Shown here: positions 34,977 through 62,975 of the stretch, one piece after another
Layout: each line of letters begins with the position of its first letter
Numbering within the stretch: position 1 is the first letter of the stretch
DNA from: Nymphaea colorata
Lineage: Eukaryota > Streptophyta > Magnoliopsida > Nymphaeales > Nymphaeaceae
Assembly: GCF_008831285.2 (NCBI RefSeq)
Contig: NC_045140.1
Coordinates: 27,236,131 to 27,300,130, forward strand
Direction: 5' to 3'
Length of the DNA: 64,000 nucleotides
Made by a program: the position numbers and the translations under genes
The notes under the pieces: model-generated
What the model saw: only the letters and a program-made list of their open reading frames with translations
Database searches by the model: none
Told to the model about the DNA's origin: nothing

Positions 34977-35468
34977 CTAGTAGGGACGCTCCCCTACAAC
35001 GTTACCAGCAGGGTCGTAGTTGCAGGTGATGAAGATTTCACCACTGTTGCACTTGACCCTGGCGCAACCCAGCCGCACCGAGTTGCGCCACACCACCTGA
35101 GTGTAGTTCAGGCACATTTTTCCATTGGCACAGGTGTTGGTGTTGTAGTCGTAGTCACTCTTTTCAGACACCCACGCTTTCACGGCATCAACTGCAGTGT
35201 AGTCTTGCCCACCTGCCTTGAAGATGTTCTGCCCATACTTGTCGGAGGGTACCAGGTTGCAGTCACCGATCCTTTGGTTGGCATAGTTCTGGGCGTAGGC
35301 TGCAACGGTGTCGTCCCATGCCATAGGACCAACACCAACTTCTGCGCGAGCTGCGTTGTGAGCAGCAAGGAAGTCTTGGGGAGAGTTTTGGGCGTGAGCG
35401 CCATGGATTAGCATTCCAAGGCCCAGCAGTAAGCTAAACCAAACAAGGACGCCAGGGGAATGCTCCAT
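34977..35468 (-). CDS. PR1: PR-1, copy 4, with altered CAP cavity
   Basis: This intronless gene has 163 codons, the usual PR-1 length. The signal peptide starts [20 protein letters not shown], with likely cleavage after HA to leave Gln-Asn-Ser. The CAP domain follows: [21 protein letters not shown] and ITCNYDP, with six cysteines. Two of the four cavity residues are changed. GENI is GQNI (Glu to Gln), and GHYTQ is LNYTQ (the His-bearing GH replaced by LN). The frame is otherwise intact. The tail [11 protein letters not shown] fits the CAPE signature. TATA box at 35581-35588, ACGT motif at 35779-35786, AATAAA at 34883-34888. Secretion and apoplastic location are inferred. Metal binding at the cavity is probably lost, while lipid binding and CAPE release need not be. 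Confidence 0.95.
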
Positions 35469-35580
35469 TTTGGCTGATCACAAGAAGAAAGCAAAAGAAA
35501 AGAGAGAGTGGTCTGAAAAGAACACCTCTAGGAAGCAAGTACTTTGGGCTTGTGATAGCATAATGGAGAGAGGTTTTCAA

Positions 35581-35588
35581 ATTTATAG
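35581..35588 (-). promoter_or_regulatory. TATA box of PR-1 copy 4
   Basis: CTATAAAT on the minus strand, 113 bp upstream of the ATG, in the same sequence block as the other copies. Confidence 0.85.
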
Positions 35589-35778
35589 AGCACCATGCGC
35601 AGCTTGAATAGGCTTCATCATCTTTGAGAATTATGTCATTCCAAAGTTAGACGACTGATTTTGTTTTGGTGCCTGAATGGGACTTATTATTAGTATAAAA
35701 AACTCAATGTCGACCTAAAGTTTCCGAAACTTGGCGTCTATCACTCGCAAGTTGTGAAAGGAAAGACGGATGCATGCA

Positions 35779-35786
35779 TTACGTAA
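35779..35786. promoter_or_regulatory. ACGT (bZIP/TGA-type) motif TTACGTAA
   Basis: A perfect 8-bp palindrome about 310 bp upstream of the ATG, conserved within TGCATTACGTAAGTTG at 57236-57243 and 63173-63180. ACGT cores are known TGA/bZIP sites and such factors control PR-1 in model plants. Function here is inferred. Confidence 0.6.
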
Positions 35787-36178
35787 GTTGTTTACGTTGT
35801 TAATAGATCTGCAAGGTTAGAAATTTTTTTTGAAAAGCAATTAAGACATTGATTCGCCAAGCGTGACTGGACAAACGTTGTACAAAATTGGATGGCGTCG
35901 GATATCTACAGATGATAACATTAATTTCTTTCCACTGTAATGCTTTCCCTTCAGGTGAGCTCATGCCCTCTAATTTCGTCAGTGAAGGTGGCTTGGGTCC
36001 TATCATATCCGAGTCCTATATTTTAAAAAATTAAAATGAAGTTTACATATTCATGTCGTGAGTTGAAGGTGATAGTCAACCCATCTATGAGAGAATACAC
36101 CGTATACTATTATAGTGATTATTCACGTGACGTCCCTCCTCACGCATGCTCGATGAATTTATCATGTACTAGACGACC

Positions 36179-37570
36179 AATTGTAACTTTTTATGCATCA
36201 AAATCACATATAAGTGTTTTATGTTTCGTTGCAAACCCGTGGGAGGAAGGGACCTCTTGCTTGCACAACTATGTGCATGCACAAATATACACAAAACAAA
36301 CAAAAAATAAAAGGATGGTTAAAGTATTTTCCAAGTCTTTTATAAAGAAATGTACATTAGAAACTTTTTTTAACTTTTTTATAACCTTTTTTTGTCCTTT
36401 TAAAAAGTTTTTTTTTTTAAGAAGGGTAATATTTTAATCACGACACATTCTGTATACAATTTTTTGATCAATGAAGTGTAAACATAACCAGTTTCGCTCT
36501 TTAACCTTTTTATTTCAAATAATAAAGGGATTTACATGGGAGAACAAAATAACAGAAGAAATGAGGCAGTATGACCTCTCTACACAACTAAATATCTCCA
36601 TTCCAGTTTGGAATTAAGGGGAATGGGCCATCTTAGAAGGTCAATAGCCGCTTCTGAAGGATCACAAAATTTCAGAATATGCAAAATTCTCCCATGCTTG
36701 TCCACACCCAAGGACTTCCCAAAACCACCAGATGAAAATCTGATGGCCCTTTTAATCCTCCCCCAAAATCAGGCAGGTCGTGGAGCAAGTTGTAGAGAAA
36801 TTGCTGCGCACTCCAGCTATACCGTTCATCAAAAAATCTCACATCGGCAACCGTCTTTAAACAATTTCTGACTTTGACCAGGTAAACCAGCTTCTGTCGT
36901 CTCCTTTCCATGCAGCTAGCTGCATGCAGATTGCACAATAACAGAATGATTTGCGAAAGATGGCCACGGGTCCGGCCTGATGCCTGTGGACGACCATGAA
37001 GATATTGCTTCTTTGTCCTGCTTGGTCTAAGTGGCATTAATAACAAATTCTTTAATTTCTATCCATATATTCGATTGAAATTTGTCCAATCAACTTCAAC
37101 TCCATGGGAATCGCATTTCTCCATTTCCGCATTTTGGTCAGGGAGATAGGGATTAGGAAAGCAAGCATGGCAGCTATAAGTCAGCCATTTAAACCAGAAC
37201 TTTCGGCGCCACCACCATCTAGCTGCTTCCTGAATTGAATTCCAGACCTTGATAGCAATATTGAACCTTGCTCCCGATGATCTCCAATCCATTTTGGCTT
37301 TTAGACAATGAATGACATGATTGTTAATTTGCCTGTTCCTGACTACCACATAGGTGACATCTATTTGCTAAGTGAACACCAAATCTTTTGAGCTTGTCTT
37401 GGGTTAAAAGGGGAGCGTCCCCTTTCTGCCATACCATCCTGCAGCACAGATCATGAGAGTGTTTATCTCTAATTTCTTCATGAATCGACATGCAAGGGAT
37501 CAACGTTGCATCTTTCTCACCCCAACGCAGTGTATAAGGGTTTTTTGTTGTCAAATTGGAGCGCAACTTA
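36179..37570 (-). mobile_element. degenerate LINE (non-LTR retrotransposon) fragment
   Basis: On the minus strand at about 37566-37330 the reading LLTQDKLKRFGVHLANRCHL is followed by CG and, after a frameshift, INNHVIHC. This is the zinc-binding region that follows reverse transcriptase in plant LINEs (LLTxDNLxxRGxxxxxxCxxC...HLxxxC). Several frames are open in turn to about 36620, with no intact ORF. The copy-5 unit lacks most of this segment: it jumps from GTACTAGACGACCA to an ATCAACGTTGCATC block at about 57774-57800. The copy-6 unit has its beginning (63597 onward), so the LINE debris was present before at least one duplication. Confidence 0.7.
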
Positions 37571-38733
37571 CATGGCTTATTTGTAGCAGTTTTCCTTTGA
37601 CGTTTTCTTCTTTTTTTCTCTCGTCTTCTTTCCGACGTAACAGTGTATTACTTGGATGACTAAGCAGTTTATATATATAAAGGATCATGTTCAACGCAAT
37701 TGCGAAGAAACCGTGAGTTGCAATTCAAAAATCAAATTCCGAATTCCTTCTCCAGATTCCAACCAGAAGGACGTAATTTCTGTAGTTCCAAACCTAGAGA
37801 TCAGTATCCACAACCGGATGAGCATGTATGGATGTTTTTGTAAGGGCTTTATAAGTATCCAAATGTGTGTGTGCGTGTGCAGAAGTCCAGATGGTCCTCA
37901 TCTGCACACTCTTGCTCACATTTCGTGCAGTAAGCAGTTAATGTTGAGTTTGAGTTGCTTTTTAAATCCAAACAGGAGCATTTTTTTCATTAAACGCAAA
38001 AAATTTCATGCCCCAGTACACGACGTATAATGTTAGGGTCCAGCATCTCGCTGCATTGCTAATTCTGATCATCCACGACCTTGGCAGATGTGAAACAATG
38101 AGAAAAAAAAGAAAAAACCAGCGGGTGCAGCTGAAGATGATGATGATGACGAAATTTAAGCAACATGTCTGGGAACGGATTGGATCAGCTTTTATGAAGC
38201 TGCCAATGTCGGTGTAGATAAGTAATTAAGGTACGTTTAAATAAAACTTGACCGTCTCAAATGATTTGGTGTTCCGCAATGTGTTGGCGCTCGATACAGA
38301 CCAGATAAAAAGCTGATCCAATCCGATTTCCTCATCTTCTTTGCGAATTCGTCTGAAAGCAAAATGAAAATAAAAACAAGTAACGTAATGGGCTATACCG
38401 GCCGACACGCCATGTCTTTTCGGCTTCAGACTTGAAACATCCTTTTTTGTTTTCACAATATTGGTCCTCCTATAAGTGAAAAAAATGTGAAACGATAATT
38501 GCAAATACAACTCCTTTGCTCAAGCATGTGCTAGTTAGGCCGCAGCCTGGAATCAGCTGATCCGATAAGCCTAGTCTTGACCCGAACTGCTGGGACTTCT
38601 GGTTTTCAGTTTCGTTATTTCTTCTTACGAGCTAGAAAAAAACCTGATTGGAGCGTCCGCTTTTGCTTATGACGAGCAAACAATGGCTTCGGTATAAAGT
38701 TGGTCATTGGTTAAACTTTCTGACTTTTCTTTG

Positions 38734-38775
<42 letters not shown>

Positions 38776-39399
38776 GAAAGAAGAACCAATCAAAAGGCAA
38801 AGACATAATGGGAAAGTAGAACCATTAGAACAATTCAAAACGCAAAGAATAGTGACCGGGTAACGAAAGACGACATGAATGGAAGTATCTATTCCTCAGG
38901 CCAATTAATGTTGGTAAGGCGACAGATCTGATGGACACAGGGGTCACAGTCGACCCACATTGTTTTATTTAGGTTTACTATTCACCCAACCTCGGGTATT
39001 TCAAGTCCTTTGACTTCCCAATTGCGTTCAGATTCAAAGCCAAAGTCGGACAGAGATACTTTTCATAAACTTAACCCAAACTTACCGCTAAGCTAAAATT
39101 CCAGATTTTTCAATTTCAATGATGGAATTGACGGAGGAGAACGAATGAACATTTCCATGCATGGAAGTCGTGCAGGTCCATGCCTCAAAGTAAAAACAAA
39201 AAAAAAACCATTATTTATTTTGAAAAATATGCACATACCTTTTTCAATATTTAATGAAAAATAATGGATTTGAGAAAATTAGAAAAAAAGCCTAATGTTT
39301 GGAAAATAAGAAATCATTATCCGACCAGTCTACAGTGTTTCCCTGAGCTATCAAACATGTCAGGGGTTACTCTAGGAAGCCCCTTCTCCTGTTTTTTTC
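37571..39399. repeat. unit right part and next 3'-flank relic; no gene
   Basis: Positions 37660-38500 are collinear with 57950-58830 (AGATCAGTATCCACA, GTGCAGAAGTCCA, CATCTCGCTGCATTGCTA). Positions 38520-38760 match 59515-59765 (CCGATAAGCCTAGTCTTGAC, TTTTGCTTATGACGAGCAAA), a relic of the PR-1 3' flank with its (TA)n run at 38735-38773. No CAP sequence follows. From 38760 to 39400 nothing is recognised. Confidence 0.7.
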
Positions 39400-39932
39400 T
39401 TTTTCTCTGTCCACAATATTCATCCTCTATTATTCTGTCTCTCTCTGTTGTTTTTCTTGGAAAGAAATTTCATTTGCTGCAATTTCATTGTTTGGAGCCT
39501 AAATCTTGATCTTTTATCTGATTTTTGAGTTGCTTTCTTTGTTGCCCTTGCAGATGTGTCTGTTCAAAGTTAACATTCACTGTCATGGATATCAGCAGAA
39601 GGTAAAGAAGCTGCTGCAAGAAATAGATGGTGGGTATTATTCTTCAAATTCATAATTTTTTTTTTTTTGCTTTTTATACCTTTTGTTTTTCCTTAGATAT
39701 GTTTGTACATCCGACTGTTTCCCCTTTTGTTTTCCTACTATGTACATTCCTAAAACGTTTGCTTTATGATGAAACTCAAGTTTTCTCATCTTGTTATGTG
39801 GTTCATTTGTCATGGGTATTGACGACCACCAATGATGCAGAACAGGGGAAGGTGATAGTATCAGGCTAGGTAGATCTCGAAGAACACCTAATGTAGTAGC
39901 AAGAGCCAAAAGAATGAAGATTAGAATGGCTA
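39400..39932 (+). pseudogene. HIPP-type heavy-metal-associated (HMA) gene fragment, left arm
   Basis: After a splice acceptor (CTTGCAG, ending 39553), the exon at 39554-39629 reads [20 protein letters not shown] and then a donor (GTGGGT). This is the first beta-alpha of an HMA domain as in isoprenylated HIPP proteins (KVNIHCDGCxxKVKKxL). The second metal-binding Cys of CxxC is Tyr here. About 190 bp on, DAEQGKVIVSG, the domain's second half, reads into a stop at 39867-39869. The C-terminal region and CaaX box are absent. The fragment extends upstream into an intron-like CT-rich stretch. HIPPs are metallochaperones of plants. This copy is broken. Confidence 0.8.
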
Positions 39933-39993
39933 GATCTTGCTGCTTCTGTATTAGTTGCTGTATTATTAGTTGTTGTTGCTGCTACTGCTGGGG

Positions 39994-40545
39994 CTGGCCT
40001 TTCTAATCTTCATCTTTTTGGCTAATACAATTGTATTAGTTTCTCTTGCTGATCCACATCGCTTGAGACCTTCACCCTCTTTTGTTGTGCATCTTGCCCT
40101 GTTCCGCATTAATGGTGGTCGTCCATCCCATGATAAATGAACCAGATAACAAGATAAAGAAACATGAGTACCAACAGAGAAAAAATGTTTTAAGAGTGTA
40201 CATAGATGGAAGATAAAGTGGAAAACTCTTGGATGTACAAAAATATCCAAGGAAAAACAAAAAGTTAGGGATAGAAGAACGGGGCACGAAGAATTTGAAG
40301 AATAACACCCACCATTTATTTCTTGCAGTAGCTTGTTTACCTTCTGCTTACATCCATCCAATGAATGTTAACATTGAACAGACATGTCTGCAATAGCAAC
40401 AAAAAACAAAGCAACTAAGGAAACAGATAAAGGAGCTAAATTTGGTGTCAGAACAATTGAATTGCATCAAATGAAATAGATTTTCAAGAAAAGTTGCCGA
40501 GAGAGACAGGAGAATAGAAAACGAGTGTTGCAGACAGGAAAAAAA
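39994..40545 (-). pseudogene. HIPP-type HMA gene fragment, right arm (inverted copy)
   Basis: A diverged inverted copy of 39400-39932. On the minus strand the same intron-like leader precedes an exon near 40388-40312 with a VNKLLQEINGG-type reading. A one-base deletion in the TGTGATGGATGT (CDGC) region throws it out of frame. The second exon part reads TTTINAEQGK at about 40125-40090. The two arms point at each other across about 60 bp of CTG/TTG-rich spacer, so transcription through the locus would give a roughly 540-bp imperfect hairpin. Confidence 0.78.
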
Positions 40546-40585
40546 AATGGTAGACTTCTGTCAGCGGAGTCCCTCTACCACCGAC

Positions 40586-40637
<52 letters not shown>

Positions 40638-41555
40638 TCAAGGCTCGAGTCTTGGCATCATCTTTTTTACCTCTTGTTTTTTTTCTTCACCTTCTTTTAT
40701 TTGTCTGGCCTTCCTTGCCTACCACTCTCCTAAACTAAACCTCTCCACAACTCCTTCCCCCCAACCCTTGTAAGTCGTGCTTGACAATTCACTTGGTATT
40801 CCTAGTTTATCAATTATTGGTAGAGAATATGAGAGGAGCAGAACAATCGGGTCTTTGGAGACACAGCTATTGTGGGTTATTCTGTTCGGGATGACACAGC
40901 TACTTCGATCACTTTTGTGGGTTATTCGTTCGGGATGAAATGCACATTGCTATTAACATTGGTCGATGTTTTTGGTCAGCTACTGACTAGTTGCCCCTCC
41001 CCAGTTTTAGTTTACCTATTTTTATTTGTTTGTTTTAGCTGTCCTTTACAAAGAGATAAGGAGGCGATCCACTATATTTGGAAAGGAGATATCTATAGAT
41101 TTGGGCGTTTCCTCATTTCAGCCCATCTTCTCCATGATTATTGAAATCAATCCTAAGATTTTCGTAACTCCCTCATATAGGTGTTTCCATCTAAAGATGG
41201 TTGTAACTTTATATAAATCGTGAATTCCTAGTGTAAAAGCATGAGAAATAATATGAAGAAGAACGCCCCTCTTCTCTGGTGGATGTAGGCTACAAGCCGA
41301 ACCACGTAACATGCTGCCTTCCTCTGCTCCCTTCCTATTGGCATCTTTTGTTTCCTCATTTTATGCTTTCTAACATTAGCATTTTTTTCGTAGTCATTTT
41401 GTCTCCAGTTCATTGTGACTTTTGTTACAATTTTTGCTATTCCATTTTTCATTTTGCCCGCTCTCTCTATCTCTCTCTGCCCTTCTCTCTTTTCCTCTCT
41501 CTATCACTCTGCCCTGTGAAAACATGTAGTAAAGGAACTCGGGGCTGTTGTGGCA
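40546..41555. other. no gene; (GA)n microsatellite
   Basis: A (GA)n run of roughly 48 bp lies at 40587-40635, beside the HIPP inverted repeat. The open frames across it are low-complexity. CT-rich DNA continues to about 41510. No gene is supported. Confidence 0.55.
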
Positions 41556-42385
41556 GCCGAACACTGAAAGAACTTGGAAGACCTGAAGAATCCTTTCCCA
41601 ACAGCCGCTAGTTCAATGAATGTTGTCGAAGAATCCATCCATAATGGAGGCAGAGGTTTATTGACGGCACGTGAAATAGCTTCTAACGTTAGTTTCCTCC
41701 CAAACTTTGATCAAAAGAGCACATGATCGGCACCTCTCTTCCTCTTTTTTATTATATTTATATACATTATGGAGAGAGAGAGAGCGGACAAAATGTAAAT
41801 TCTTTGAAGATAAAAGCAATGACAAGACGTCACCAATCAACCACTAATAAAAAATGGCAAAAAACAAAAACATGCAGAAACAAAAGTCAAAGCATGAACA
41901 AAAAATAAGAGGTGGAAGATGAACTGAGCAAGTTAGTCTGAGGCGAAAGTCATCTTGCGACCCATGAAAATGACAAGGTGCACATCTTCCTTCACGATAC
42001 ATTCTATAGAAGCGACACTCTCTGTTGTGTCCCTAAATATGTGATTGTTGTCTTCTTTCCAAATTAGCCACCAATAACAATTGAGCCACGGCCACCATGT
42101 AAAATGCCACCCACTGCTAACTGAATGTGAAGGTGAAAAGAGAAAGCTGCCTCTAGAAAAGAAGAAGTGCAACCAAAACACTTTGAAAGAACCTGGAAGA
42201 CCTGAAAAATCATTTCCCAATAGACGCTAGTTCAATGAATGTTGTCGAAGAATCCATTAATAAAGGATCCATAAAGGAGGCAGGGGTTCATCGACGGCTC
42301 GTGAATAGCTTCTAATGTAAGTTTCCTCCCAAACTTTGATCAAAAGAGCACAAAATCAGCGCCTCTCTCCCTCTTTCTCATTATA
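41556..42385 (-). mobile_element. LINE fragment (3' part) with internal direct repeat
   Basis: On the minus strand, 42220-41940 includes WWLIWKEDNNHIFRDTTESV, the tryptophan-rich WWxIWKERNxRIF motif near the end of plant LINE ORF2, in the zf-RVT region. Positions 41556-41750 and 42180-42385 are direct repeats of each other (CTAGTTCAATGAATGTTGTC and CTCCCAAACTTTGATCAAAA), so a segment of the element is duplicated. No intact ORF remains. Confidence 0.75.
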
Positions 42386-42800
42386 AAGGAGGCCTTCCCA
42401 AGGAAACGCGCATGAGATGATTGAGACTGGTGAAAGTGGCAGTTGATGGCTTATAAAGAGAAGGGCATGTAGTTGGACGGAAGCGAGAGAATGTCGGATC
42501 AGGTGATTCTATTGGCAAGGGAGAGGACCTTAGCCTATCAATCTTGCAGGCAAAAAAGCATCTGCTGCTCGACGTTCGCTCAGAAGAAAGGCGGCGGCAG
42601 AAAATTGAGATAACGAAAGGCCAAGAGCTTCAGCAAAAAGTGTTGTTGCAGGATCTACATGAAAGAGCGCAAGCTTACATTTAGCGGGATTAATGGGAAG
42701 CCCAAAACGAAAGAGAGAGTGGGTGCAGAATTTGTGCTCTTTTGATCAAATTTTCGTAGGAAATTGGCAGAAGCTCTTCACAGGCGGCTAATGAAATGGT
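42386..42800 (-). pseudogene. LINE reverse transcriptase fragment
   Basis: Reading minus, the pieces INPAKCKLALF, FAEALGLSLSQF and DAFLPARLIDRL appear in order, interrupted by frameshifts and stops. They match the C-terminal part of plant LINE reverse transcriptase (LxINPxKSE..., EALGxPLGxLPVxYLG, LPxxxRIxxR). It lies upstream (on the minus strand) of the WWLIWKE part, in the normal LINE order, so both belong to one decayed element. Positions 42800-43000 are less AT-rich and may belong to the same element but were not matched. Confidence 0.72.
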
Positions 42801-43489
42801 GAGGGAGCCATAGACTGGGATCCCTGCTCCAGCCTCGATTATAGATGGATCCTTCAGTGGCTTTCATCTGACTACTGGGAGAGGACTCTTCGAGTTTTCC
42901 AACGCTTGCCATCAAGGCTCCGAGTTCCCCTGCTGCAGTTCTCAGCAGGGCTGGGGCAAAGGGACTGAGGAATCAGAGTTGACTACGTTTACGTTTTTGC
43001 TTGTAAAAAGTATTGAGGCGTATGCTTTGAGTTTAACAACCATAAAAAAGAAAAAAAAAAAAAACTGGATCCTAAATTGCAAGGGTTTGGGGAGGGCTAC
43101 CGGCTATGGCTACCTCAAGTTTTGAAAATTTAAATTTATTAATTAAAACTTTTCAACAGATTTTCGTTCAGCCCGTCCCGGAGAACCTTTAAAAAGATTT
43201 ATGCTATAATATAACGAATGACTAAAACAATTGTCGAAAGCACCATCCAACAACAGAGCATTAGTAATAATTTATGGTGTAATATTATTTTAACAACTAT
43301 TCATGGTGCTTTTAATGATGGGTTTTAAAAGATTAGCCATTCAAAAACATCGGGCCTGCTGATAAGAAATTATTTGTTTTTCAAATTTGGGTGTACATGA
43401 CCGATAATCCAGCAGGTGCTGTCATACTGATCACGATGATAGGTTTCTTGTTGTTGACAGCGACTACGAAGACGATGAGGACGTAAGTC

Positions 43490-45200
43490 TAGGATGAAGA
43501 TTTTTCTGAAAACTTAGTTTCACTCATGATTGAGACCTAATTCTTGGTATTAAACCTACCTAAATCATAGTCTTCTCTCAATATCTTAACCACGACTTGA
43601 TATTTGAAATTATGTACCTATGTTTGAACCCTAGTCCCGTTAGAACTATATCATAGTCAGGTTAAAGCTAAATCTTAGCCAAGTTAAACTCAAACCTTAA
43701 TTAGACTCTACCTAAAGCCTAGCAAGTTTAACCCAAATCTCAATAAGGTTGGACATGTGGATCTTAAAGAAATTGTATTCAGATCTCAATGAATTGGATT
43801 TAAATATCAAATTTAAGATCAAATACAAGATTGAATTTGGATTTGACAAATTTGAATATGATTTGGATTGAAAGAATTGGATTACTGAACTTAGACCTTG
43901 TGAAGATTTAATCCTAGAAATGGATTTCATATCAACACTTTTGGATTTGGATTTCATGTTACTCAGATCCAGATTTCAGACCTTTATCCAAAACCCTAAA
44001 TCCCTAAACTTTCACATTGGATCGTTAAATTTCATTTCAGATTTGGATCATGGACTTTGAATCAAGAATCAATATGAATTGAGTCAACTCTCAGTTGGGA
44101 TTTGAACCTAAGACCCTATTAGGATGATCCTAAGTCCAAATGCCATACCTAGATCAATTAATGAACGTTTGCATCATCTTTAGTTGATGAACTTGAATTT
44201 AAACTTTGAATTAATGTTTTCCTAGGTCTACGACCCAAACTTAGAAACCAGATCTTAATTATGCATTGAATCTAGTTTCCTTGTTGCATTTAGGTTTGAC
44301 AACAATCATATCTTGGGACCTTAAGCACTTAATATGGTTCTCGGTCTGATTACTCCTGTTAAAAGCAACAGGAATTGTCAGATTCATACCAATGAGTCGA
44401 GTTCTATCTCACGTAGATTCTAAGGCAAGTTAATATTTGATATGTTCTTGTTCATCCGACATGAAATTCTCGCAATGAGAATACGCACCCTCTTACTCTC
44501 CTATCCTATCTGCCTTCCACCTTTCCCTTATTGTTCACTAAATCAACAGCAGCATGCTGGCGTAACATACACAATAGTGGCACAATCGGTGGCCGCTGCT
44601 CATCCTCTTGTGACTTTCACGGTATTCTTTTCGGTTTGTAGTTTTTGGTTTTCAATTTTCAAAGGGGGTCCTTTCTTCGGATTCTTTTGGTGGCGGGGGA
44701 CGCTTTCTCTCTCGTCACCCATTTCTTTGCCGGAGCGTCCTTTCCAATCAGGTGAACCTGAGAAGATTCACCAAAATGTTATTGAAGAACATAAACTTGG
44801 AAAATATCCGTCCGTTCATCATCAGTTTATCGTATTTAGTTAGGTTTTCTAATTCTCAGCCCCCAAATTAGTAGCCTCTGTTTGCTTTATGCATTTCTGC
44901 TTTGCTTTATTTATTAGTTTTTTTTTTGTTATGTTTCGATATTTTTTCAATTTTATTTTTTATAATTTAAAATACATTTTAATCAATACGATTCTCGATT
45001 TGATTCACCTAACCGATTGAAAAACCCTTCTTCATAACATTTCTTGGCGCGCGTTATCTAGTTTCATAATAAACTGCAGATTTTTTCAGTAACATCAAAT
45101 TTCATGAAAATTTGTGGCAGTTTGGCACGAGTGGCAAATTGATACCTTCAACCTTGAACACTGGGGAGGGTCGATTCTAATGCTCTTTTATTTATTTATT
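43490..45200 (+). repeat. PR-1 unit without its gene
   Basis: Positions 43530-44460 copy the GGATTTGGAT-rich module (32400-33480). Positions 44480-45210 copy the 3'-flank part of the PR-1 4, 5 and 6 units, ending near the (TTTA)n run and ATGCCGTATGCAG. In the other units a PR-1 gene follows within about 150-200 bp. Here homology switches to the dispersed repeat also seen at 17740. The gene is absent, and no PR-1 promoter side was seen. Confidence 0.8.
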
Positions 45201-45840
45201 TAAACTACTGTATGCCGTATGCAGAAAAATGGTTGGTGCAGTTTGTTATTTAAATTTTTTCAGGAAATGACAAAAGATGAAGACTTTGTGGGGCTCATTA
45301 TTTTTCTTAGCAGAAACGAAATTTGCTCGAATTTCTATTTTCGGCCCATGACGATTGGATCTTCTTTTCTGGGCCTGCACCTGGATGGTCAATTTATAAA
45401 ATAAGTGGACCTCAAAGAGCAATAAGTTTATTCACTGGTTTAGATCTTAAAAGAGCAAAAGAAAGAAAGAAAAGCTTGGGCTTCTTTTCATCCCAACTTG
45501 CACATCAAAAGGAGGGCAACGGAAGGCTAGAAGAAGGAACATCTTAATTAAACCAAATATTGGACCTAAATCTGCAATAGAATCCTCCTGCCTCTCTCAC
45601 TTAATGAGTGAGTTAATCAGGCCTCATCCTTTTTGCTTGTGTTCGAATCACCACAGCCATTCTAGCGAACATGTCATTTGATTCCGCCCGTCTTGTACTA
45701 CGAATTAATTTTGTTTGTATCGGGTCCAAATGGGTCTGGTCTAAAGTTCAAAAGCAGTAATTACGGGTAGCATTCGAATCAAATCGTAAAGCCATATTCG
45801 ATCCGTTTGCAGCTCCAACCAATGTTCCTGTGCGGGTCGG
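45201..45840. other. dispersed repeat; no gene
   Basis: Positions 45219-45420 are the second copy of the repeat at 17740-17935. From 45420 to 45840 no repeat or gene is recognised. Positions about 45720-45850 have GGGTC-rich words like element edges. Confidence 0.5.
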
Positions 45841-45939
45841 TTGTCAGAGATGTCAACCCGATTGAGTCCGACGTCTTTCGCACGAAATCCCTGGGCTTCA
45901 TCTTTCCCTACGCCCACGCGTCACCGACTTCTATGTCAA

Positions 45940-46252
45940 AGACTCGGTTACTTTGGGTTTAACCGCAGTTACTTCTCTTAACTCATCGTTACTATTTGAG
46001 GGACGCGATCACATTCCCCTTCATCGACTTTTTGTCCCCTTTTTTCTTCTCTCTTTCCCTCTCCTCTTTCCCTGTCCCTCTCTCTTTCCCTCTCCCTCTT
46101 CCTCCTTCGTCCTCTCGAAAGGGAGAAGAAACCCTAACTCTGGCTCTAACCTAGCGCGCGAACCCCTTCAACGGAAATCAATCGTCTTTCTCCACGGGAG
46201 GGGGGAAGCACGAGGGGGCTAGGGTTTCCTTCCTTTCCAGTTTCCCCCCACC
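45940..46252 (+). promoter_or_regulatory. UPF1-type 5' leader
   Basis: This CT-rich leader precedes the UPF1-like ATG, with a telo-box-like AAACCCTA at about 46129. It contains an 89-codon upstream open frame (45953-46222) of low complexity. It looks like the 5' untranslated region of the parent gene carried over with exon 1. No TATA box was assigned. Confidence 0.5.
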
Positions 46253-46763
46253 ATGGCCGCGCAGCATGTCGTCCCCAACCTCTACGAGACAGCGTCCCAG
46301 CCCGACACAGGCGACCCTTACACCTTCCTAGAATTCAACACGCAAGGCGACGACTACGACTACGAATTCAGGGAGCTCAGCCAGCCGATCAGGTCGACCG
46401 TGTGGTCTCCCAACAACTGGCCTCCCTACCACCGGTGCCGCGGCGGCCAACGAGTCGAACAACCGCGATCTGCCTGCAGATACGGCGTCTGCCAACACGG
46501 CCGCGTCGTCTCCCAGGCCTACCGGGACGAAAGGCCGGTGGAACCAGGGCGTGACAGATGCCTTGGCTGCGGGTATCGGTGAGCTGAGCTTCGAGGCAAC
46601 TGGCGATGAGGAGGGCTTTGAGGTTGGCAAGGGCGGGGATTTCACTGAGCATGCGTCCCGGTATTGCGGGGTGCAGAACCCTGCTTGCGTCGTCCCGTCC
46701 TGCCGCAAGTGGTTCTGCAATTCAAGGGGCAACACGTCCGGGTCTCATATTGTTAATCATCTG
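46253..46763 (+). pseudogene. UPF1: UPF1 (regulator of nonsense transcripts 1) first exon, broken
   Basis: The ATG opens into LYETASQPDTGDPYTFLEFN and FRELSQPIRSTVWS, diagnostic of the plant UPF1 N-terminus. One extra base near 46425 shifts the frame, after which the second frame reads TGAAAANESNNRDLPADTA, VTDALAAGIGEL and then DFTEHASRYCGVQNPACV. The zinc-binding CH domain is damaged: the first Cys of HACxYCG is Ser, and the RCNV segment of CVVRCNVPSCRKWFC is missing. SRGNTSGSHIVNHL then ends at a likely donor, CTG/GTTGGT, at 46763. No exon 2 or helicase follows. UPF1 is the RNA helicase of nonsense-mediated decay. This is a duplicated 5' end, no longer coding for a full protein. The frameshift could in principle be an assembly error, but the two zinc-site changes argue for decay. 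Confidence 0.9.
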
Positions 46764-47307
46764 GTTGGTTGCCGTTTCTCTTCATCCTTTATTTATTGAA
46801 AATGGGCGCCATTATGTCTCGTTTCTATTTTTGGGGCTTCAGTATGTTTCTCAATTTTGTTGAACAAATATTAATGTTGGATTTGGTCTGCGATTTTGCC
46901 TTCCGAACTGCGTCCTTCCGCTTTTACTTGTTCCCTGGATGTGTTTGGTGCAATACAAGTCCGTAATTAGGAAATTGAACTGAGGAAGGTAGCCGAATGG
47001 GCAATTGGACCGAGTGCAGTTCCTACAAAGACTTTATAATTGCCGAGAGGAAGTTTTTTCTTTTTGTTTTCTTTTCATTTGCTCCGTGGAAGGTGATAAT
47101 AAAAGCGATTTTTGTTGATTTTGTCCTTGTAACATTGAAGAATGCTGGTTGGGGTTAATGCATTGTCAATGACAATGCCGGTTGGTATTAAACCTATGCT
47201 TGCTGTTTAAGAAAAAGTGATGACTGATTCTTGCCAGTAATAAAAATTCTTTTGGTTGTATGGGTTCCTTTTGTTATGATTGTTCTTTTTCTGATTGATT
47301 TGCCAAT
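46764..47307 (+). other. intron-like remainder of the UPF1 fragment
   Basis: T-rich sequence following the UPF1 donor, with no exon recognised. Probably the start of UPF1 intron 1. It runs directly into the palindrome. Confidence 0.6.
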
Positions 47308-48069
47308 ATCTAATGATCTTTCAAATCCTTGGATTTAGATATTGTTGCTAGTGGATGTTTCATACTTGCTGTTTGTTGTTTATTTTGGATGTTATATATT
47401 CATTCTGATTTGATTTTTGTTAATTGGTTTGTGTCTTTTGCAAATTTGCCGCAGGTTTTTTTTAGTGCATGTACATGTTTTTCTATTTCCTTTTATCATT
47501 AGGAGTCGCTGAAGAAAAAAATGTTGGCGTAACTTTCATTTGTTTTGGTCTATTTATGTACAAACAAAAAACCATCAACCATAAGCCAAGGCCAAAATGC
47601 GCTTTGCTTTATTGCTTTTGCCTATTTTTATACCAAAAAAAACCATCAGACATTCAAACTTAGCAAACACCAGACAACCTCATTAAAGTCCTAATGAGGT
47701 TGTCTGGTGTTTGCTAAGTTTGAATGTCTGATGGTTTTTTTTGGTATAAAAATAGGCAAAAGCAATAAAGCAAAGCGCATTTTGGCCTTGGCTTATGGTT
47801 GATGGTTTTTTGTTTGTACATAAATAGACCAAAACAAATGAAAGTTACGCCAACATTTTTTTCTTCAGCGACTCCTAATGATAAAAGGAAATAGAAAAAC
47901 ATGTACATGCACTAAAAAAAACCTGCGGCAAATTTGCAAAAGACACAAACCAATTAACAAAAATCAAATCAGAATGAATATATAACATCCAAAATAAACA
48001 ACAAACAGCAAGTATGAAACATCCACTAGCAACAATATCTAAATCTAAGGATTTGAAAGATCATTAGAT
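47308..48069. repeat. near-perfect long palindrome, 378-bp arms, 6-bp loop
   Basis: Left arm 47308-47685 and right arm 47692-48069 are reverse complements around the loop AAGTCC. Position x pairs with 95377 minus x. I found one mismatch (47331 against 48046) and no indels by eye. The left arm is continuous with the UPF1-like intron, and the right arm meets unrelated sequence at 48070. The identical 64-codon open frames on both strands come from this symmetry and are not genes. Near-identity means the inversion is very recent, subject to gene conversion, or an assembly artefact. Confidence 0.95.
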
Positions 48070-48899
48070 TGAATAACCAGCAAAACATTATCAAGCTTAG
48101 ATATAAGTCTGTAACCTTCATATTACACGTTAGCTAAGCATTGGCAGGGCAAAACAAGCCGACTTGACACTCGGTGTTTGTGCTAATTACCCATTTATGC
48201 ATAATGAGCTGCTAATTGCACAGCTCCCCTTACAAAAATAAATTGTCGGTTAGCCATGAGCTTGCTATTTATTCATCAGCTCTACCTGCAAACTGAAAGG
48301 CTGCAAGAGGAATCATGTTCATGGGAAAAATGGTTCATGAGTTGGCTAGTTAGAATTGGTTTCCTAAACGAAAGTTAGTTTGAGAAACAACGCTTGAGAT
48401 GTAAAATGGAAATGATGTGAGGAATCATGTTCTGGAAAACAAAGTCATTGTTAGCAACTCTGTCCCAGGCGTTCGTTCTAGAAGGACTCTTGTCAGATTA
48501 CAAAGATTAGTTAAATGTATGCATCAAAAAAAGAAGTCATTTTCCTAATGGCTCCAGGTCCCATGTTTGAATTGGACTCAACCTCCTTAAATTTCTATCA
48601 TTCTTGGTACCACGGGTCTGACCAGAGCAGAAGCACCATTTTTCTCTTGATGTGAATATATATATAGATATATGCAATTCGCTTTATCATTAATTAAAAA
48701 ATATTGATAATCTTTAATTCTAGATTGAAGATTAGTAACTCATGAAGAGCGAACAATTAGTTTCATTTGCAGTAATAGATACATAGTTTGTTTTTTCTTT
48801 TGTTCTTTTCAGAAATAAGACAACCGATTGTTTGCATACGCCTGCCTCGAGAGAGGTGAAATAAAAAAATAGCGCTACATTCTCAGAATATCATAATTC
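48070..48899. other. no gene seen
   Basis: AT-rich intergenic DNA with no supported gene or repeat boundary. Confidence 0.5.
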
Positions 48900-49832
48900 T
48901 TGAGCAAGGTACCGCCCCCACAAAAATATCCTAAATGAATCATAAACACCAAATCATAACTGATAATTAACAAATTTAAATAATTACGCATAGAACAAGC
49001 TTAAATAGTTGAAGTTCCTACAATCATGATAACGATAAACATAGAAAACTAAATCTGATTTTTATGGAAAGATTTTATTTTTCATTTATCATTAATTTTG
49101 ATTGATTTTGTTGGGATTCTTTCTTTGAATCTCTCTTGAATGATTGACTATCAAACTTATCGTTAACATCCTCTAAGGTGATCATGCCATCCCTTTGGCA
49201 ATGATTTGACGAGCCCAAATTTGCTTTATAAAGTTTTTTGTGAAGGTAGATCGTGCTTTGGCAGCAATTCAAAAAACCCAAGTTTGATTTGTCAAGATTT
49301 TGGTGAAGAAGATAACAATGAATTTGGTCGCATGCAGGCCACCTATGGGCTTCATTCTTTTTCATCAAGCATCCTGCTCTAATACCAAGATAAAAAATAA
49401 AAAATAAGTAAAACAAATAAAAACCAGCATGAAAAAATTCTTTTCATTAAACGTATATGGTTTTTCACCCTGAAAGGCCACCATGAGCATTGGTTACACA
49501 ATGCATGGAACGAACTTAAATAGTTGAATGTCCTATAATCTTGACAATGATAAAAATGAGAAACTAAATCTAATTTTTGTGGAAAGTTTTTTATTTCTTC
49601 ATCATTAACTTTGATAGATCTTACTAAGATTATTTCCTTCAATTTCTCTAGAACGGTTGTCTTTCAACCTTATCATTTAACGCTAAAATCTTGGCAACGA
49701 TACATATGAGAAACTAAATCTGATTTTTGCAGAAAAATTTTCTTTTTTCTTTATGATTAGTTTTGATTGATCTTGCGAGGATTTTTTCCTTAAATATCTC
49801 TAAAACGGTTGTCTTTCAACCTTATCGTTAAC
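48900..49832 (-). mobile_element. TRIM-like retroelement, minus strand, with partial tandem LTR
   Basis: Reverse-strand relative of the element at 2935-3940. LTR starts (TGTTAACGATAAG on the minus strand) lie at about 49168 and 49832, with a third LTR body between 49440 and 49670. The internal part (49169 to about 49385) includes the primer-binding-like TGGTATTAGAGCAGGATG near 49385. There is no gag or pol. The outer LTR end at 49832 directly abuts the terpene synthase fragment that follows. Confidence 0.75.
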
Positions 49833-50094
49833 AGAACCAGACAAAGGTAGCGGAGGAACAAACATGGCAGCACATATGGCACTTGCTAAAGGATGCATGG
49901 AGGAGGCTGAACAGCACTCGGCTCAGCAACATCAGCAACATACTGCCTTCTCTCGATCCTTCATGGACGTGGCGCTCAACATTGCGAGGGTCTCCCAGTG
50001 CATGTATGATTATGAAGATAGCGTTGGTGTCTTGAAGCATGAGTCCATGGACCGTGTCTACTCTCTCATTGCCGAACCCATCCAAACTGCCTAA
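49833..50094 (+). pseudogene. terpene synthase, last-exon fragment
   Basis: Two frames together give the C-terminus of a plant terpene synthase. The first reads HIWHLLKDAWRRLNST, matching the HIxxLIxxAWKxLN region at the start of the last exon. After a frameshift, FSRSFMDVALNIARVSQCMY and then DRVYSLIAEPI appear, matching PFxRxFLDxALNLARVSQCxY and DRVxSLLFEPI. A stop lies at 50092-50094. The catalytic DDxxD and NSE/DTE motifs are on earlier exons and absent here. An apparent 76-codon frame with an internal ATG covers only part. The fragment starts at the end of a TRIM LTR, which probably truncated it. Confidence 0.85.
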
Positions 50095-51412
50095 GCAAAC
50101 CACCAATCGCTTCTTCCCACTTTCAACCATGTTGCTGCTCATTAACCGAATCGTACTTATGATACTATATATCATCATGCAATAAAATGAGTACATTAAT
50201 ATATTAAATTAAGTGCTCTCTCTCTCTCTCTGTCACACACACACATGTATGCACACAGTCATAATTTGTTCTTCCAATCTCACATTTACTATCAGTAGAA
50301 CTGTTTGGATTTAGATGAATGGTGTTCTTGTTTGGTAACTTGAACAAAAAATTAATTCAATAAAAATACAGATCCTGTACAAATGGGTCTTGGTCTGTAT
50401 CATAATGAAAGACAAAAAAAAAATTAACAAAACATATATATACATAACAACCACTTATTATTTCAACTCAAACTTTATTAATCTTTATGTTTTATAGTAT
50501 GAAAATCAACACAAAAGTGACTTTTATATACTTAAAAGGATGTTGTTGACTCTTAAAAAACTTATTTATGCATCGCAATGCCATTTTAGGTAGATAGATT
50601 TTATTGTTTTGATGACTGAGATTCATGTCCACATTTTAAAAGAAAAGGGTATGGAATGCTAATGAGCGCAGCACTGTTTATAATCATCTTTTGCAAGAGA
50701 CCCTACGGATCCCAAAAGCAAGAACTTCCATAGTTTATGTCCAAAGAAAACAAGAAGTGCCTCTCCAAAAGAACCTGACATGTACAAAAAAAAAAAAGAG
50801 GAGAGACGACTCCTTCACCGCTGCACATGTCAAAGATGCAATTCAACGAAAAAAATAAACGCAGATGACAATTCCTCTAATAATTAAAATCATTTTACAG
50901 ATCTAGACAATTCTAAAGCTACAATTACACAACACTCTCCCTTTAGCATATATATAAAAAAAAAAAACCCAAACCACCCACCGGTCACCTCCTTCTCCAC
51001 CGCCACTACCAAAGAGGCTCCCCACAAGAGCACAACTAAAACAATATTTCATATTCATTCCCCACTTGGCTTTTCTTTTTCTTTTTTTTTTTGGAAAAAC
51101 AAAACTTTAGACATACGGAAAAAAAAATGCATATGTTTTGATATGCTTTCCTCACGATGGGTGAGTTGTTTTGTTTTCCCCATTAACTTAAAATTGAAAC
51201 TTTTTAACCTATGAGTTTGAGTTGCTATTCTACCTCATTCAACGAAGTTTGATGTTTCAAAACTCAATTGGCTTAAACTTGGTTCGAGCTTCCAAAAATA
51301 AGTTCAACTCGACCGAGCTCATTAAGACATGAATGATCCAGTCATTCCAAACGAGTCAAGCTTTAACATCCTCGGCTCTGCTGGTGCACGACTGACTGCA
51401 AGAGTGACGTCT
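50095..51412. other. no gene; CT and CA microsatellite
   Basis: A (CT)n run is followed by (CA)n at 50214-50245. The rest is AT-rich with several poly(A) runs. No gene is supported. Confidence 0.5.
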
Positions 51413-51472
51413 TCTTATGATATTTGACCGTTGACTTTGATTTCTTATGATATTTGACCGTTGACTTTGATT
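51413..51472. repeat. 30-bp tandem duplication with paired W-boxes
   Basis: A 30-bp unit occurs twice head to tail. Each unit contains TTGACCGTTGACT, that is two WRKY W-boxes (TTGACC and TTGACT) one base apart, giving four in 60 bp. No recognised gene starts nearby: a 61-codon open frame at 51461 has no known motif. Confidence 0.8.
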
Positions 51473-52129
51473 TTGGGTTTGAAGAACAAAATTAAACCCA
51501 TCTTCTCAACAAGTTCGGTGAAGTGCTTTTGCAATCGTTTAATTGCAAAAGGGACAATAAAATGGGAGTCACTCCCGACAAGATTTTCATTGGAATTGCA
51601 AAAGGGAGACAAACGGAGTCACTCCCAATTCTCAATTTCATCTTAAGCTTTCCAATCAATCAACATTTTCATTTTCCCTTTCATTTTTCTCTTTTCTCAC
51701 CAATTTCTCTTTTCTCACCAAGTTGATCGTTATTTTTCCTTCCTTTTTTTTTCTCGCCCACACTTTTTCTCCTGCCTTTAAGCACTTCTCATGGCAGGTG
51801 TCATTACCGAACACACCACCATAGCATAGTCAGTGTGGAAAAGAATGCATGAATAAAAAATAAACTAGCCGCCTGAGTCGAACTTGAGTTGAAAATGTAA
51901 AGCTCGTGTCAAGCTCGAGCTGACTAAACATGAATCGAGCCAAGCTGAAGCTGACTGAGCTCGAGCTCAACTCTGCTCGTGCGCAGCCCTACGATGAGGG
52001 ACAGATCAGATTGTATCTACCAAGTATTAAATCAACAAACAGACCTTCTTACGTGATCTACGACGCGGCTCGCTGGTGGACCCAAAAGCAGCTTCGGCCC
52101 ATCACGGGTATAACGACCCAGAAATTTTA
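51473..52129. other. no gene; possible DNA-element edge
   Basis: Positions 51895-51990 are rich in GCTCGAGCT words and end CGTGCGCAGCCCTA, like a terminal repeat of an hAT-type non-autonomous element. A partner end was not found. No gene. Confidence 0.45.
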
Positions 52130-53159
52130 AAGTTTTTTTAATTTACTTAATAAACAAATCTGCAAATAAAAATAAGATAGAATCACGTTAAAAATATTGG
52201 CCAATACAGGTTGATACGCTGTATCATTTAGGCAACAGGCAAGCGACGTGTTTTGATCTATTTTTACAAAATTGATCCTGAAGTAAGCATGAGAAGAAAC
52301 GAAAAATTGTGTGAAAGTACGGTTAAGATATCTCAAAAGCCATCGGCAAATACTTGTCATAACTATTTATAAAAACAGAAGCAGTCGCCACCTTAATTAC
52401 TTATATGCAAATTGGTCGATGTATTCGAACTGCATCATGATTTGTTATAATTTGAAATTCTTCAAATGTAAGAACCTTATGGACAAGTTCAAAAGCAACC
52501 TCATCTTCAATTCATGTGTTGTTATTGGGAAATCGGGAAGCGGTACTGAACAAGATCTGGATTGAACTTTAAAGTTTGATAGACCTTAAATTTTGGTGTG
52601 GACTTATGTGATCACATCATGGTATGGGCTTATGTGATCACATCAGTATGACTCATTTGGACAAGCTGGTAGTACCGACTGCACCAGAAACTTGGCGTAT
52701 TCAAATATGACCATGGACAAGCTAGGCAGCCATGAACCTGATGTTGGGTAGTGGCCGTGAGCCCTATCCCTTTCATTTTGTAACTGCAAAGAAGATCCTG
52801 CAATTATAGAATTAAAACAAGAAATAAATCATGTTACCGTTTTGATTCTTACCTTAAATCTCCTTGCCATAACCGTAGCTGGGTAATTGGAGAAATCTTG
52901 AGAGGCGGTCTATAAAACCCAGCGTCTTTACCTTAATACATTATCGTTGAGAAATCAACTGTCAGAAGCAAACCCTCATACTGTTCTTTTTAGCTTTCTC
53001 CTCTTTCTTCTCTCTGTTTTCTTTGTCACAGGTGCTGCCCCTTATCCTGCTAGTCAGACGACGGCTATTTCCACTGCTATACTGAGCTCTTTATCCATCA
53101 CCTGACCCTTGACCAGAAGTGCTGCAACTTCCGGTGCGCCTAGCGACGCTATGTCATTC
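52130..53159 (-). repeat. module left of PR-1 3' flanks
   Basis: Parts recur at 9990-10240, 13560-13740 and 58850-59640. At about 52700-52745 CAAGCTAGGCAGCCATGAAC matches 13655-13675. At about 53105-53160 a GACCAGAAGTGCTGCAACTT block matches the line before copy 2's 3' flank. The DNA between is unique. No gene seen. Confidence 0.6.
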
Positions 53160-54110
53160 TTGTCAAGAGGCAAGTAACATTATTTGATGCATAATATTCA
53201 ATCAAAATATGGTAACAAGGTTCACATCCAAAAGTACACCTGATTGGTGCTGTAGCGTTTGCTTATGACAAAGCAAAGCGAGGGCCTGGGTATGAATTAA
53301 GCTGATCACTCATGAAGTGCTGCAAATAGTAACCCTAGCCGTTTTCCCGTATATCATTTGTCCTTTTAGGATGAAAGATGGTGCCTGTCTTCACTTTTAA
53401 AGTTAAAATGAATCAAGCTCCTTCGTTGGAGCATCGACGCCCAGTTATAAATGGAAGTTGATGGGGATCAAGCCCGTTCATTCAGCATGAATAGACGACG
53501 ACCGAAATCATGATTAGACTCTCTCTTTTTGTCTCTCTCAAACAGCGACAGAAAAGGATGCAATTTTTATCACAAAGTACATGTAGATACTATTTGACGG
53601 GATAAGTAAGCAACGGAGGACGGCGGATAACATTCGTAGGATATATCAACGGGGCTAGCTACCCAACGTCCACCCTCACAAGTTATTCTATATAGATGAG
53701 CGAGTCTACGAGAAGCACGCAGAGGCTTTGGTGATTGAGAATCGAAGTCTTTATAATACGGGTGCATGCATTTTCAAACTCAAGAAACTCAGCAGACATC
53801 AGCCTCTTGTTTACAATTTACTTCGCCAACTTTGGGACGATTCTGGTTTGATGTCTGAATAGAAATTCAAATTTGGTCTTTAGAGTCTCTCATAATTACT
53901 TGCAAGTTGCAAGAAAAGACCCAAGCATGAACAGTTAAGTTGTCAAAAATGAATCAGAATATCGGAAGGAGCAGTTAAGAAATTGAGTTGCGACCTGTGA
54001 TTGCGCACAAGTTGTACGAAATTAGGTTGTACTGGATCCCAGATGAGAAAAGTTAATGATGGAAAAAGTTGACCGGACGAAAAAAATAAAAAGATGGAAA
54101 ACATTGACCG
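53160..54110 (-). repeat. PR-1 unit from which the gene is deleted
   Basis: Positions 53160-53700 are the PR-1 3' flank (as 1-638). At about 53700 it joins directly to sequence that in copy 2 lies near 15205-15260, upstream of the gene (GAGAATCGAA words), and then to the distal module at 53930-54110 with TTGACC at 54069-54074 and 54104-54109. The coding sequence, TATA block and proximal promoter are missing between them. The inverted unit at 20660-21700 shares this arrangement, so the deletion probably predates that inversion or duplication. Confidence 0.75.
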
Positions 54111-56440
54111 GAAGTCAGCTATATATATCGTTATATATATAAGGTGAACCTTACCTCCTCTTGCGGTGACGGTGGGAGGGGAAAGCATCACCCTCCGGGA
54201 CTATCCTCTGGCTGAAGAAGAGGGATTGGAGAAGGAGATGAAATTGGGTACAACACGTATGCACCAAAAGGAAAAGGAGTTAGGGGGTATTTTTGAAGTT
54301 TTTTATAAAATAATTGAGAATTTAGACTTCCTAACTTTTTCATCATTTTCGTTCATCCTTTTAAAAAAAGTCTCTTTTTATTTTATCAAAAGTATTTTGA
54401 TCATTGAACACTCATGTACACAATTTTTATGCACAGGAATGTGCACATAACCAGCATCCTTTGGCAAACCGAGTGCATGGTGGTTCACGCAACGTATATC
54501 CATCCTAAAAAAAAAAGAGAATGGGAGTTGGGATACTTTAGAAATTTCAAAAAATTAATGCTTTTTTGAACTTTTAATTTTCTCAGCTTCCTACTTTTAT
54601 GATCAACGATATTATGGTCATTCAGGATTGTATTTGTTGTCCAATTTAAGTCAGTACCACAGCGAGATGTTAATTAGCTTAAGAATATCGACGGATACCG
54701 TTCATCCGGAAGCGCCAATGACGGATACCGTTCATCCTTTGTAGAAATGCTGTCATTGACTATGATAAAATTCCTTGACATCTAAATAGAAACAACTGCC
54801 AGTTTATTGATTAACATGGAAATATAAACTATTGCTTTTCGGACAAAATTAATGAAAAGAAGATTAGAAAGAAATTAAAATTACATGATCATGGTGTTAT
54901 GTGGGTGTGTTCTTTACATTCCCAGATCTTAAACACAGCTGGAATGGAAGCGTATGTACAGTTTAACCTCACATTCCCATGACTCATGGCCCGAGCTTGG
55001 CTGCTTTTTAAACAGACTTGGCCTCACTGCTGTTTAAATCCGCAAGAGTCATCAACTTGAATCGGAATATTTTGACTGGGTTCCTAGGCTTGTTCAAGGG
55101 GCACCAATGATCGCCCTACCTTCTAGGGTATCGGTAAAATCTGGAAAGAATCGGCGAATCAGACTGAATCGCCTGATTTTCTCCCTGAAAAATGGCAGTG
55201 CTTGTTTTGGTAATTTCCTTTTTTTTAATTAAAAAACCTTTGGAAGCTGTATTGTGTGACATCCACCCTTCATCTTTGAAAGGGGTAGTAAAACCCTAAT
55301 TTCAAGTGGAAGCCCTAATTTCAATTTGAATACTATATAATTTTGCGACAGGCTAGGGTTTTGGAGGTGAAGTCTCCAGAAACTCATGATTTCCAATTAG
55401 GGATGGCGTTTCATGTTAACGGCCACACACTTGACCGAACCCTTGAGTCCCTCCCCCTCCGCGCTCACCGTCTCTCTCTCTCTCTCTCTCGCTTTCTCTG
55501 CTACAGAGGGACTCATCCACTTGCGACAAAAAAAGTTTGATGGTATCCTTTTCTATTCGTCTTGTTTTGGGTTTTCAAATTTTCAAAGGGGGTCCCTTTC
55601 TTGGAATTCTTTTGGTGGCAGGGGACGCTCTCCCTCTCGTCACCCATTTCTTTGCCGGAACGTCCTTTCCAATCAATCAAGTGAATGTGAGAGCATTCAC
55701 CAACATCTTATTAATTGAAGAATATAAATTTGGAAAGTATCCGTCCGTTCATCATCGATTTATTTATTGTATTTAGTTAGGTTCTCTAATTCTCAGCCCC
55801 AAATTAGTAGCCTCTCTTTGCTTTGTGTATTTCTGCTTTTGCTTTATTCGTTAGTATTTCTTTTTTGTTATGTTTTGATATTTTTTCAATTGTATCTATT
55901 TTTAAATTGTAAATATATTTTAATCAATATGATTTTTCGATTTGATTCACCTAAATCATTTGGCTTTTCAAATCGATTGAAAAACCCTTCTTGGTAACAA
56001 TGCTTGGCACGCGCTATCAAGCCTCATTGTAAACTGCAGATGGAGACATAACCAAATCCGTTGTGCCATTTGCTCCCTACCTTACCTTACCAAAATGGCC
56101 GCACTTTTCCCAAAAATTCTTCTTTTTTCATGAAAAAGTTAAAACAGGTCGCTGTCCAGTAACTAGTAAGGAATAGTGTACGTGAAGGGCAGGAGCGAAA
56201 AAGCGTCCAGTATCATCAAATTTCATGATAATTAAAGGCAGTTAGGCACGAGTGGCAAATTGATACCGCCTTGAACACTGGGGAGGGTAGATTCATGTGC
56301 AAATGACCTGTAAAATTTATTTATTTATTTATTTAAACAACTGTATGCATACATTTTATTCTAGGTAAACGAGCTGCTGCTCTGACTATTAAAACCCAAA
56401 GTAAACTAAGGCGAAGCCAAATGTTAATTTGGCACGCCAT
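54111..56440 (-). repeat. unit of PR-1 pseudogene 5, left part
   Basis: Positions 54200-55290 match 27054-28133. Positions 55290-55335 match 32060. Positions 55500-56440 match 33680-34976, without the MITE. A short segment at 55335-55500 with CTCTCTCTCT and a GGGATGGCGTTTC block is not in the other units. A (TTTA)n run lies at 56304-56333 and AATAAA on the minus strand at 56355-56360. No independent gene is supported. Confidence 0.75.
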
Positions 56441-62875: not shown

Positions 62876-62975
62876 TGACTGATCACAAGAAGAAAACAAA
62901 AGAAAAGAGAGAGTGGTCTGATCTAGGAACCAAGTACTTTGGGCTTGTGATAGCATAATGGAGAAAGGTTTTCAA

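Follow-up and report, generated by a model that had tools for sequence, protein, structure and literature searches.

A near-perfect palindrome present twice in the Nymphaea colorata genome, in a rearranged UPF1 relic, and evidence consistent with partial homogenisation of its arms

In yeast deficient in Mre11 or Sae2, inverted repeats of 5-9 bp with spacers of 3-12 bp can drive palindromic duplications (PMC7999016). Hairpin stems can be both made and repaired by template switching (PMC8794818), and conversion between the arms of a palindrome is recorded on the W chromosome of willow (PMC7023750). The palindrome described below is 762 bases long and lies in a stretch of 64,000 nucleotides on contig C3 of Nymphaea colorata (the window; C3:27236131-27300130). 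No published report of it was found in titles or in the opening parts of abstracts.

The palindrome resembles the fold-back inverted duplications of PMC3907307, PMC7467729 and PMC7999016, in which an inverted copy stands at a very short spacer and short hairpin seeds are involved. Those cases, from human cells and yeast, are gross rearrangements and duplications of large size, whereas the present event measures 0.8 kb and lies in a plant pseudogene. Its seed sequence was not found in a genome search with the inner part of the arm. As in template-switch hairpins, a reverse-complement copy gives a stem that pairs perfectly, and pairing can be restored by later switches, although the largest pattern mentioned in the extract of PMC8794818 is 59 bp, compared to arms of 378 bp here (392 inferred for the ancestor). 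The test for conversion used in willow (PMC7023750) and for palindromes of the X chromosome (PMC8981503), ie differences between copies or species that are common to the arms of one palindrome, applies equally to this locus. The willow arms share a sequence of 20 kb that includes genes and lies on a sex chromosome, whereas the arms here are shorter than 0.4 kb, have no UPF1 exon that could be found and offer two informative sites. Finally, there is a likeness to Tpd1, a long hairpin-forming hpRNA locus of teosinte and maize (PMC11390486). Tpd1 is known from small-RNA and target-cleavage data, whereas the present palindrome is known from its sequence and an intron is its sole identified target.

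Structure of the palindrome and its surroundings

The original prediction gave two arms of 378 bp with one mismatch, a centre of 6 nt and no indels, and alignment of the arms confirmed each of these values. The elements of the palindrome are:

47308..47685, + strand: left arm (arm pairing)
47686..47691, no strand: palindrome centre, 6 nt, AAGTCC, unpaired (comparison with the second copy, D)
47692..48069, - strand: right arm, inverted copy of the left arm (arm pairing)
47533..47685, + strand: inner part of the arm (genome search; four matches, each an arm)

The 378 paired positions contain a single mismatch, a G at 47331 opposite a T at 48046. When folded as RNA, the palindrome strand forms one unbroken hairpin of -645.6 kcal/mol, in which the G-T mismatch pairs as G-U. 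Shuffled controls (n = 20) had a mean of -152.7 kcal/mol with a standard deviation of 6.9, and the stability of the hairpin is therefore far beyond chance. In the window there are four inverted repeats with arms of at least 80 nt lying no more than 3 kb apart, the palindrome included. The other three are unlike it, having arms 79-93% alike with 240-2174 nt in between. Nearby repeats had been described as clearly diverged; this mostly holds, the longer direct repeats of 94-151 nt being 74-83% alike, though a tandem pair of 30 nt at 51412-51471 has two identical units.

A rough scan for palindromes with arms of at least 40 nt covered 243,604 bases in 19 pieces, which were chosen by similarity and not at random, and low-complexity matches were dropped uncounted. 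It returned three palindromes: the window copy, the D copy and one with 41-nt arms. The loose rule applied in the scan over-extended the ends of the window copy to 47241-48136, and only the unbroken inner part of the D palindrome was registered. The small palindrome, with its arms 59 nt apart, lies at L021:4316-4456 (C3:27744316-27744456).

Elsewhere in the window, copies of a CAP-domain (PR-1-like) gene are found on the - strand at 14270-14773, 34980-35468 and 62387-62956 (PF00188, 69.8-77 bits). The window has five open reading frames of at least 150 aa, and PF00188 was present in three of the four frames scanned. Blocks similar to these CAP-domain copies recur at C3:27.68-27.73 Mb.

UPF1 ancestry and the right border

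The palindrome had been placed at the end of a broken 5' fragment of UPF1. Such a fragment is indeed present, with the frame of exon 1 broken and the match to PF09416 retained. The pieces derived from UPF1 are:

45430..47099, + strand: 5' region of UPF1 origin, comprising exon 1 and the beginning of intron 1; homologous stretch at C4:21422875-21424580, identity about 88%
46254..46766, + strand: exon 1 of UPF1 with a broken frame, its right end approximate; PF09416 match of 51.1 bits, start of the Zn-binding domain
47092..47535, + strand: piece of a later UPF1 intron; C4:21429406-21430198, alignments stop at 47527 and similarity is visible by eye to about 47535
51082..51610, + strand: second piece of UPF1 origin, its counterpart lying upstream of the C4 gene; C4:21422088-21422584, 79%

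The gene on contig C4 used for these comparisons is an apparently intact relative. Its exon 1 is open from MAAQ and bears the start of the UPF1 Zn-binding domain, more of that domain (PF09416) lies at C4:21426088-21426354, and pieces of the AAA helicase, some of them under the Pfam cut-off, are found further along. The match of the window to this gene is not continuous. It jumps from C4:21422875-21424580, which is followed to 47099, to C4:21429406-21430198, which is followed from 47092, and 4,825 bp of the C4 gene, exon sequence included, are absent at the junction. A 4.8-kb transposon inserted in the C4 gene was considered as the cause of this gap in the homology and was ruled out by the UPF1 exon sequence that lies there (the PF09416 match at C4:21426088-21426354). 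The second stretch, C4:21429406-21430198, sits between two open frames, and their products match neighbouring parts of PDB chain 2xzo_A (Regulator of nonsense transcripts 1), the first corresponding to 148-189 and ending SQVY, the second to 183-226 with the Walker-A loop. Because this stretch lies between frames adjacent in 2xzo_A, and 4,825 bp are lost, the apparent intron in the window is a chimera, in which intron 1 is fused to a later intron, the one before the Walker-A exon.

The original prediction that the left arm continues the UPF1-like intron needs correction, as the arm does not continue intron 1. About 220 bases of its outer part are UPF1 intron and run on from the left flank, but the intron is a later one, brought next to intron 1 by an internal loss: on alignment to the intact gene, the start of intron 1 matches to 47099 and the later intron matches from 47092. 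The inner part, about 153 bases, matched arms only, as a genome search with 47528-47691 returned the four arm copies and found no unduplicated ancestor. Comparison with the C4 gene detected no exon sequence of UPF1 in either arm. The C4 intron holds an extra stretch of about 360 bp that is not in the window and is probably a repeat element. Two places in the window in opposite orientations, 25801-25971 and 26826-26992, are 75% like this insertion (C4:21429921-21430093). A stretch of the arm of 61 bp (47467-47527) has an 84% match at C13:7524823-7524882, and the exon 1 region has a weak match (46117-46485, 66%) at C5:12278419-12278799, where PF09416 was not found.

The second UPF1 piece, 51082-51610, lies downstream of the first in the same orientation. 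Compared to the parent locus the two pieces have changed places, an arrangement like that of a circular permutation or a collapsed tandem. Because a piece from upstream of the gene is now downstream of the first piece, the locus is a multiply rearranged relic.

At its right end the palindrome adjoins a repeat that is dispersed in the genome:

48063..51012, + strand: dispersed repeat, entered in its interior at the right border of the palindrome; partial copies on C9 (two) and C4 (21.50 Mb, and a weaker one at 23.98 Mb)
48063..48069, + strand: junction microhomology ATTAGAT, 7 bp, common to the arm end and the repeat; exact in two of three other repeat copies, ATTAAAT in the third

The numbers of copies are lower bounds, ie at least two on C9 and at least two on C4. 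To the left of 48063 the three repeat copies compared share a further 35-62 bases, and the window has the arm there instead. One repeat copy on C4 lies about 70 kb from UPF1. An origin of the right flank from that neighbourhood was set aside, since the C9 copies are closer (91-95%, compared to 86-89%). Inside the repeat, at 49018-49833, a unit of about 95-150 bp occurs three times in diverged form, the copies being 74-84% alike.

The second copy and the comparison of four arms

Genome searches were made over the 407.8-Mb assembly of 783 contigs. With 47200-48200 as the query, the whole structure was found to recur on the opposite strand at C3:27718445-27719447, about 435 kb away, and this copy is referred to as D. 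Whole-palindrome copies are present in at least two places, both of them within a segmental duplicate:

45312..53710, + strand: inverted-duplicate segment, palindrome included; matches C3:27712919-27721369 throughout, in inverted orientation

Outside the palindrome, the flanks of the window and D copies differ at 142 of 7,565 aligned positions (1.9%, summed; 0.76-4.45% by segment), and divergence is just 0.76-1.75% in the segments adjoining the palindrome. Leftwards, similarity to D is 98% at 42389-44256, 92.6% at 38525-42183 and about 85-86% at 34773-38507. Rightwards, it is about 85-86% at 53710-55345. A stretch of 1,055 bp (window 44257-45311) is absent from D. As a target-site duplication is not clearly present, and the neighbourhood of D contains related sequence, this difference is probably a deletion in D.

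Because the right border and the arms are common to the two copies, the palindrome predates their split, or one copy later passed it to the other. A very recent inverted duplication, which had been among the origins proposed, is contradicted by the presence of the palindrome in both members of a duplicate with flanks 1.9% apart. At the centre, pairing in D extends 14 bases further in each arm, to a loop of 5 nt, and the arms there are perfect; the window is without 27 bases that D has between 47691 and 47692. In view of these extra bases and of the perfect arms leading to the 5-nt loop, the centre of the window copy looks like a deletion scar. At the left border D is without 17 bases (window 47292-47308). 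A similar form is present in the C4 UPF1 intron, and the loss is therefore D's; it was taken as an ordinary deletion between TCT repeats. The missing 17 bp end exactly at the first base of the left arm.

The left and right arms of the window copy and of D were aligned together. Differences private to one arm occur at 47331 in window-left, where the C4 gene shows the state of the other three arms; at 47428 in D-left, together with a change losing six bases near 47574-47587; and at 47728 and 47791 in D-right. These five private differences show that the arms and the copies change independently. Two sites in total are informative, a C/G transversion at 47483 and a 1-nt indel, one T at 47534 in a run of three T. 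Both unite the two window arms against the two D arms, and no site in the alignment groups left with left, or left with right, across the copies. Parallel change at both informative sites has a probability of 2.7e-5 under a simple and crude model. At 47483 the C4 gene has C like the window (aligned by eye, next to an insertion of C4's own), because of which D, and not the window, would probably be the copy that changed.

The grouping of arms by copy supports arm-to-arm conversion, or copying templated by the hairpin, which may have partly homogenised the arms in at least one copy since the split. The simplest account would place in D one or more tracts of conversion or template switching, at least 52 bp long and, if the private changes on either side are older, no longer than 147 bp. 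Gene conversion had also been proposed originally, and both informative sites speak for it, with the caveat that read polishing may have copied one arm onto the other, though five private arm differences survived. The small divergence between the arms, taken alone, is marginal and only weak evidence for conversion. The chance of no more than one difference in 378 positions is 0.09 at a flank divergence of 1.08%, 0.05 at 1.25%, 0.02 at 1.5% and 0.005 at 2%, and the arms of D differ at four places, which is about the expectation without conversion. The identity of the arms was dropped as a clock for the age of the palindrome, as the shared sites group the arms by copy.

Origin and possible function

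Fold-back template switching in a rearranged UPF1 fragment, followed by partial homogenisation of the arms, is in our judgement the likely origin. The starting material would have been a truncated UPF1 fragment with an internal deletion. A strand copying this fragment would have folded back on itself at a short hairpin, whose 5-nt loop is the centre kept in D; a spacer as tiny as this loop is consistent with a short hairpin seed. About 392 bases would then have been copied in reverse, after which synthesis would have switched to the dispersed repeat at the 7-bp microhomology ATTAGAT. The palindrome would next have come to lie in both members of the inverted duplicate about 435 kb apart, in each of which it is in fact observed. 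After the split, the arms within at least one copy would have been partly homogenised, either by arm-to-arm conversion or by hairpin-templated replication, and the window copy would later have lost 27 central bases, as expected if the tip of the hairpin was cut and rejoined.

A palindrome formed shortly before the segmental duplication might have similar arms through youth alone. The arm differences are few (1/378 in the window, four places in D) and the segments adjoining the palindrome are little diverged between the copies, both of which fit such an age, but the same transversion and the same 1-nt indel would then have had to arise in each arm of one copy, at mirror positions, and we consider youth without conversion unlikely. 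A transposon of the foldback type or a MITE, inserted as a mobile element into the UPF1 fragment, is highly improbable. Some foldback elements typically have long near-perfect inverted repeats with a tiny loop, as seen here, but the outer part of the arms is UPF1 intron running on from the left flank, and the right border shows microhomology to the interior of a repeat. Independent insertions elsewhere in the genome were not found: the search with the inner arm returned nothing beyond the arms of the two segmental copies.

Perfect palindromes are well known as a form of assembly artefact, and a misassembly at a haplotype join had been suggested; a palindromic long-read chimera is the other artefact to be considered. 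The second copy contradicts the suggestion: it has the same right junction, has diverged separately and is assembled on the same contig in the opposite orientation. The two copies differ in the centre, the left border and their private changes, and the uneven similarity around them (98%, 92.6% and about 85-86%) is unlike that of two haplotypes of one place. There is no N in the window, in 100 kb around D or in 40 kb around the C4 gene, and we regard an artefact of either kind as extremely unlikely. The existence, about 435 kb away, of a second copy with private changes of its own suggests an old rearrangement with arms overwriting each other, and argues against an assembly error as well as against a very recent event. 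The palindrome is genuine, and probably neither very recent nor an artefact.

Most likely the palindrome would have no function of its own. A candidate role as an hp-siRNA locus could coexist with the fold-back origin: transcription from the UPF1-type leader would give a 378-bp duplex, Dicer-like enzymes would cut it to siRNAs of 21-24 nt, and selection would keep the locus. If transcribed, the palindrome is predicted to yield an RNA with one long near-perfect stem. Exact matches to the UPF1 region on the plus strand of C4:21423000-21444000 were found for 26 of the 358 21-mers and 18 of the 355 24-mers of the left arm; these matches make up three stretches, 33, 31 and 22 nt long, none of which extends beyond a single intron. 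Maize pollen siRNAs are known from long near-perfect hairpins (PMC11390486). However, exon sequence of UPF1 was not detected in the arms and the spliced UPF1 mRNA would therefore be no target, leaving only pre-mRNA or chromatin; the arms of D have four unpaired changes; and Rfam gave no match for 44000-54000 at gathering scores. On balance this role is quite unlikely. A more elaborate proposal, that the two palindromes are a candidate natural hairpin-RNA pair, is very unlikely. Both would feed 21-24 nt siRNAs into the UPF1 intron before the Walker-A exon, so that a relic of the gene would tune a central factor of nonsense-mediated decay while conversion kept the stem fit for Dicer.

The individual processes are already known elsewhere, and the locus is an instructive pair of a known kind. 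A sub-kilobase palindrome that occurs twice in the same genome and whose parent gene can be identified amounts to a small natural experiment. The pair suggests how a hairpin forms, how its arms correct each other over perhaps 50-150 bp and how its centre is prone to loss. The identity of the arms is a poor clock, as the palindrome seems new and yet is common to copies whose flanks are about 1.9% apart.
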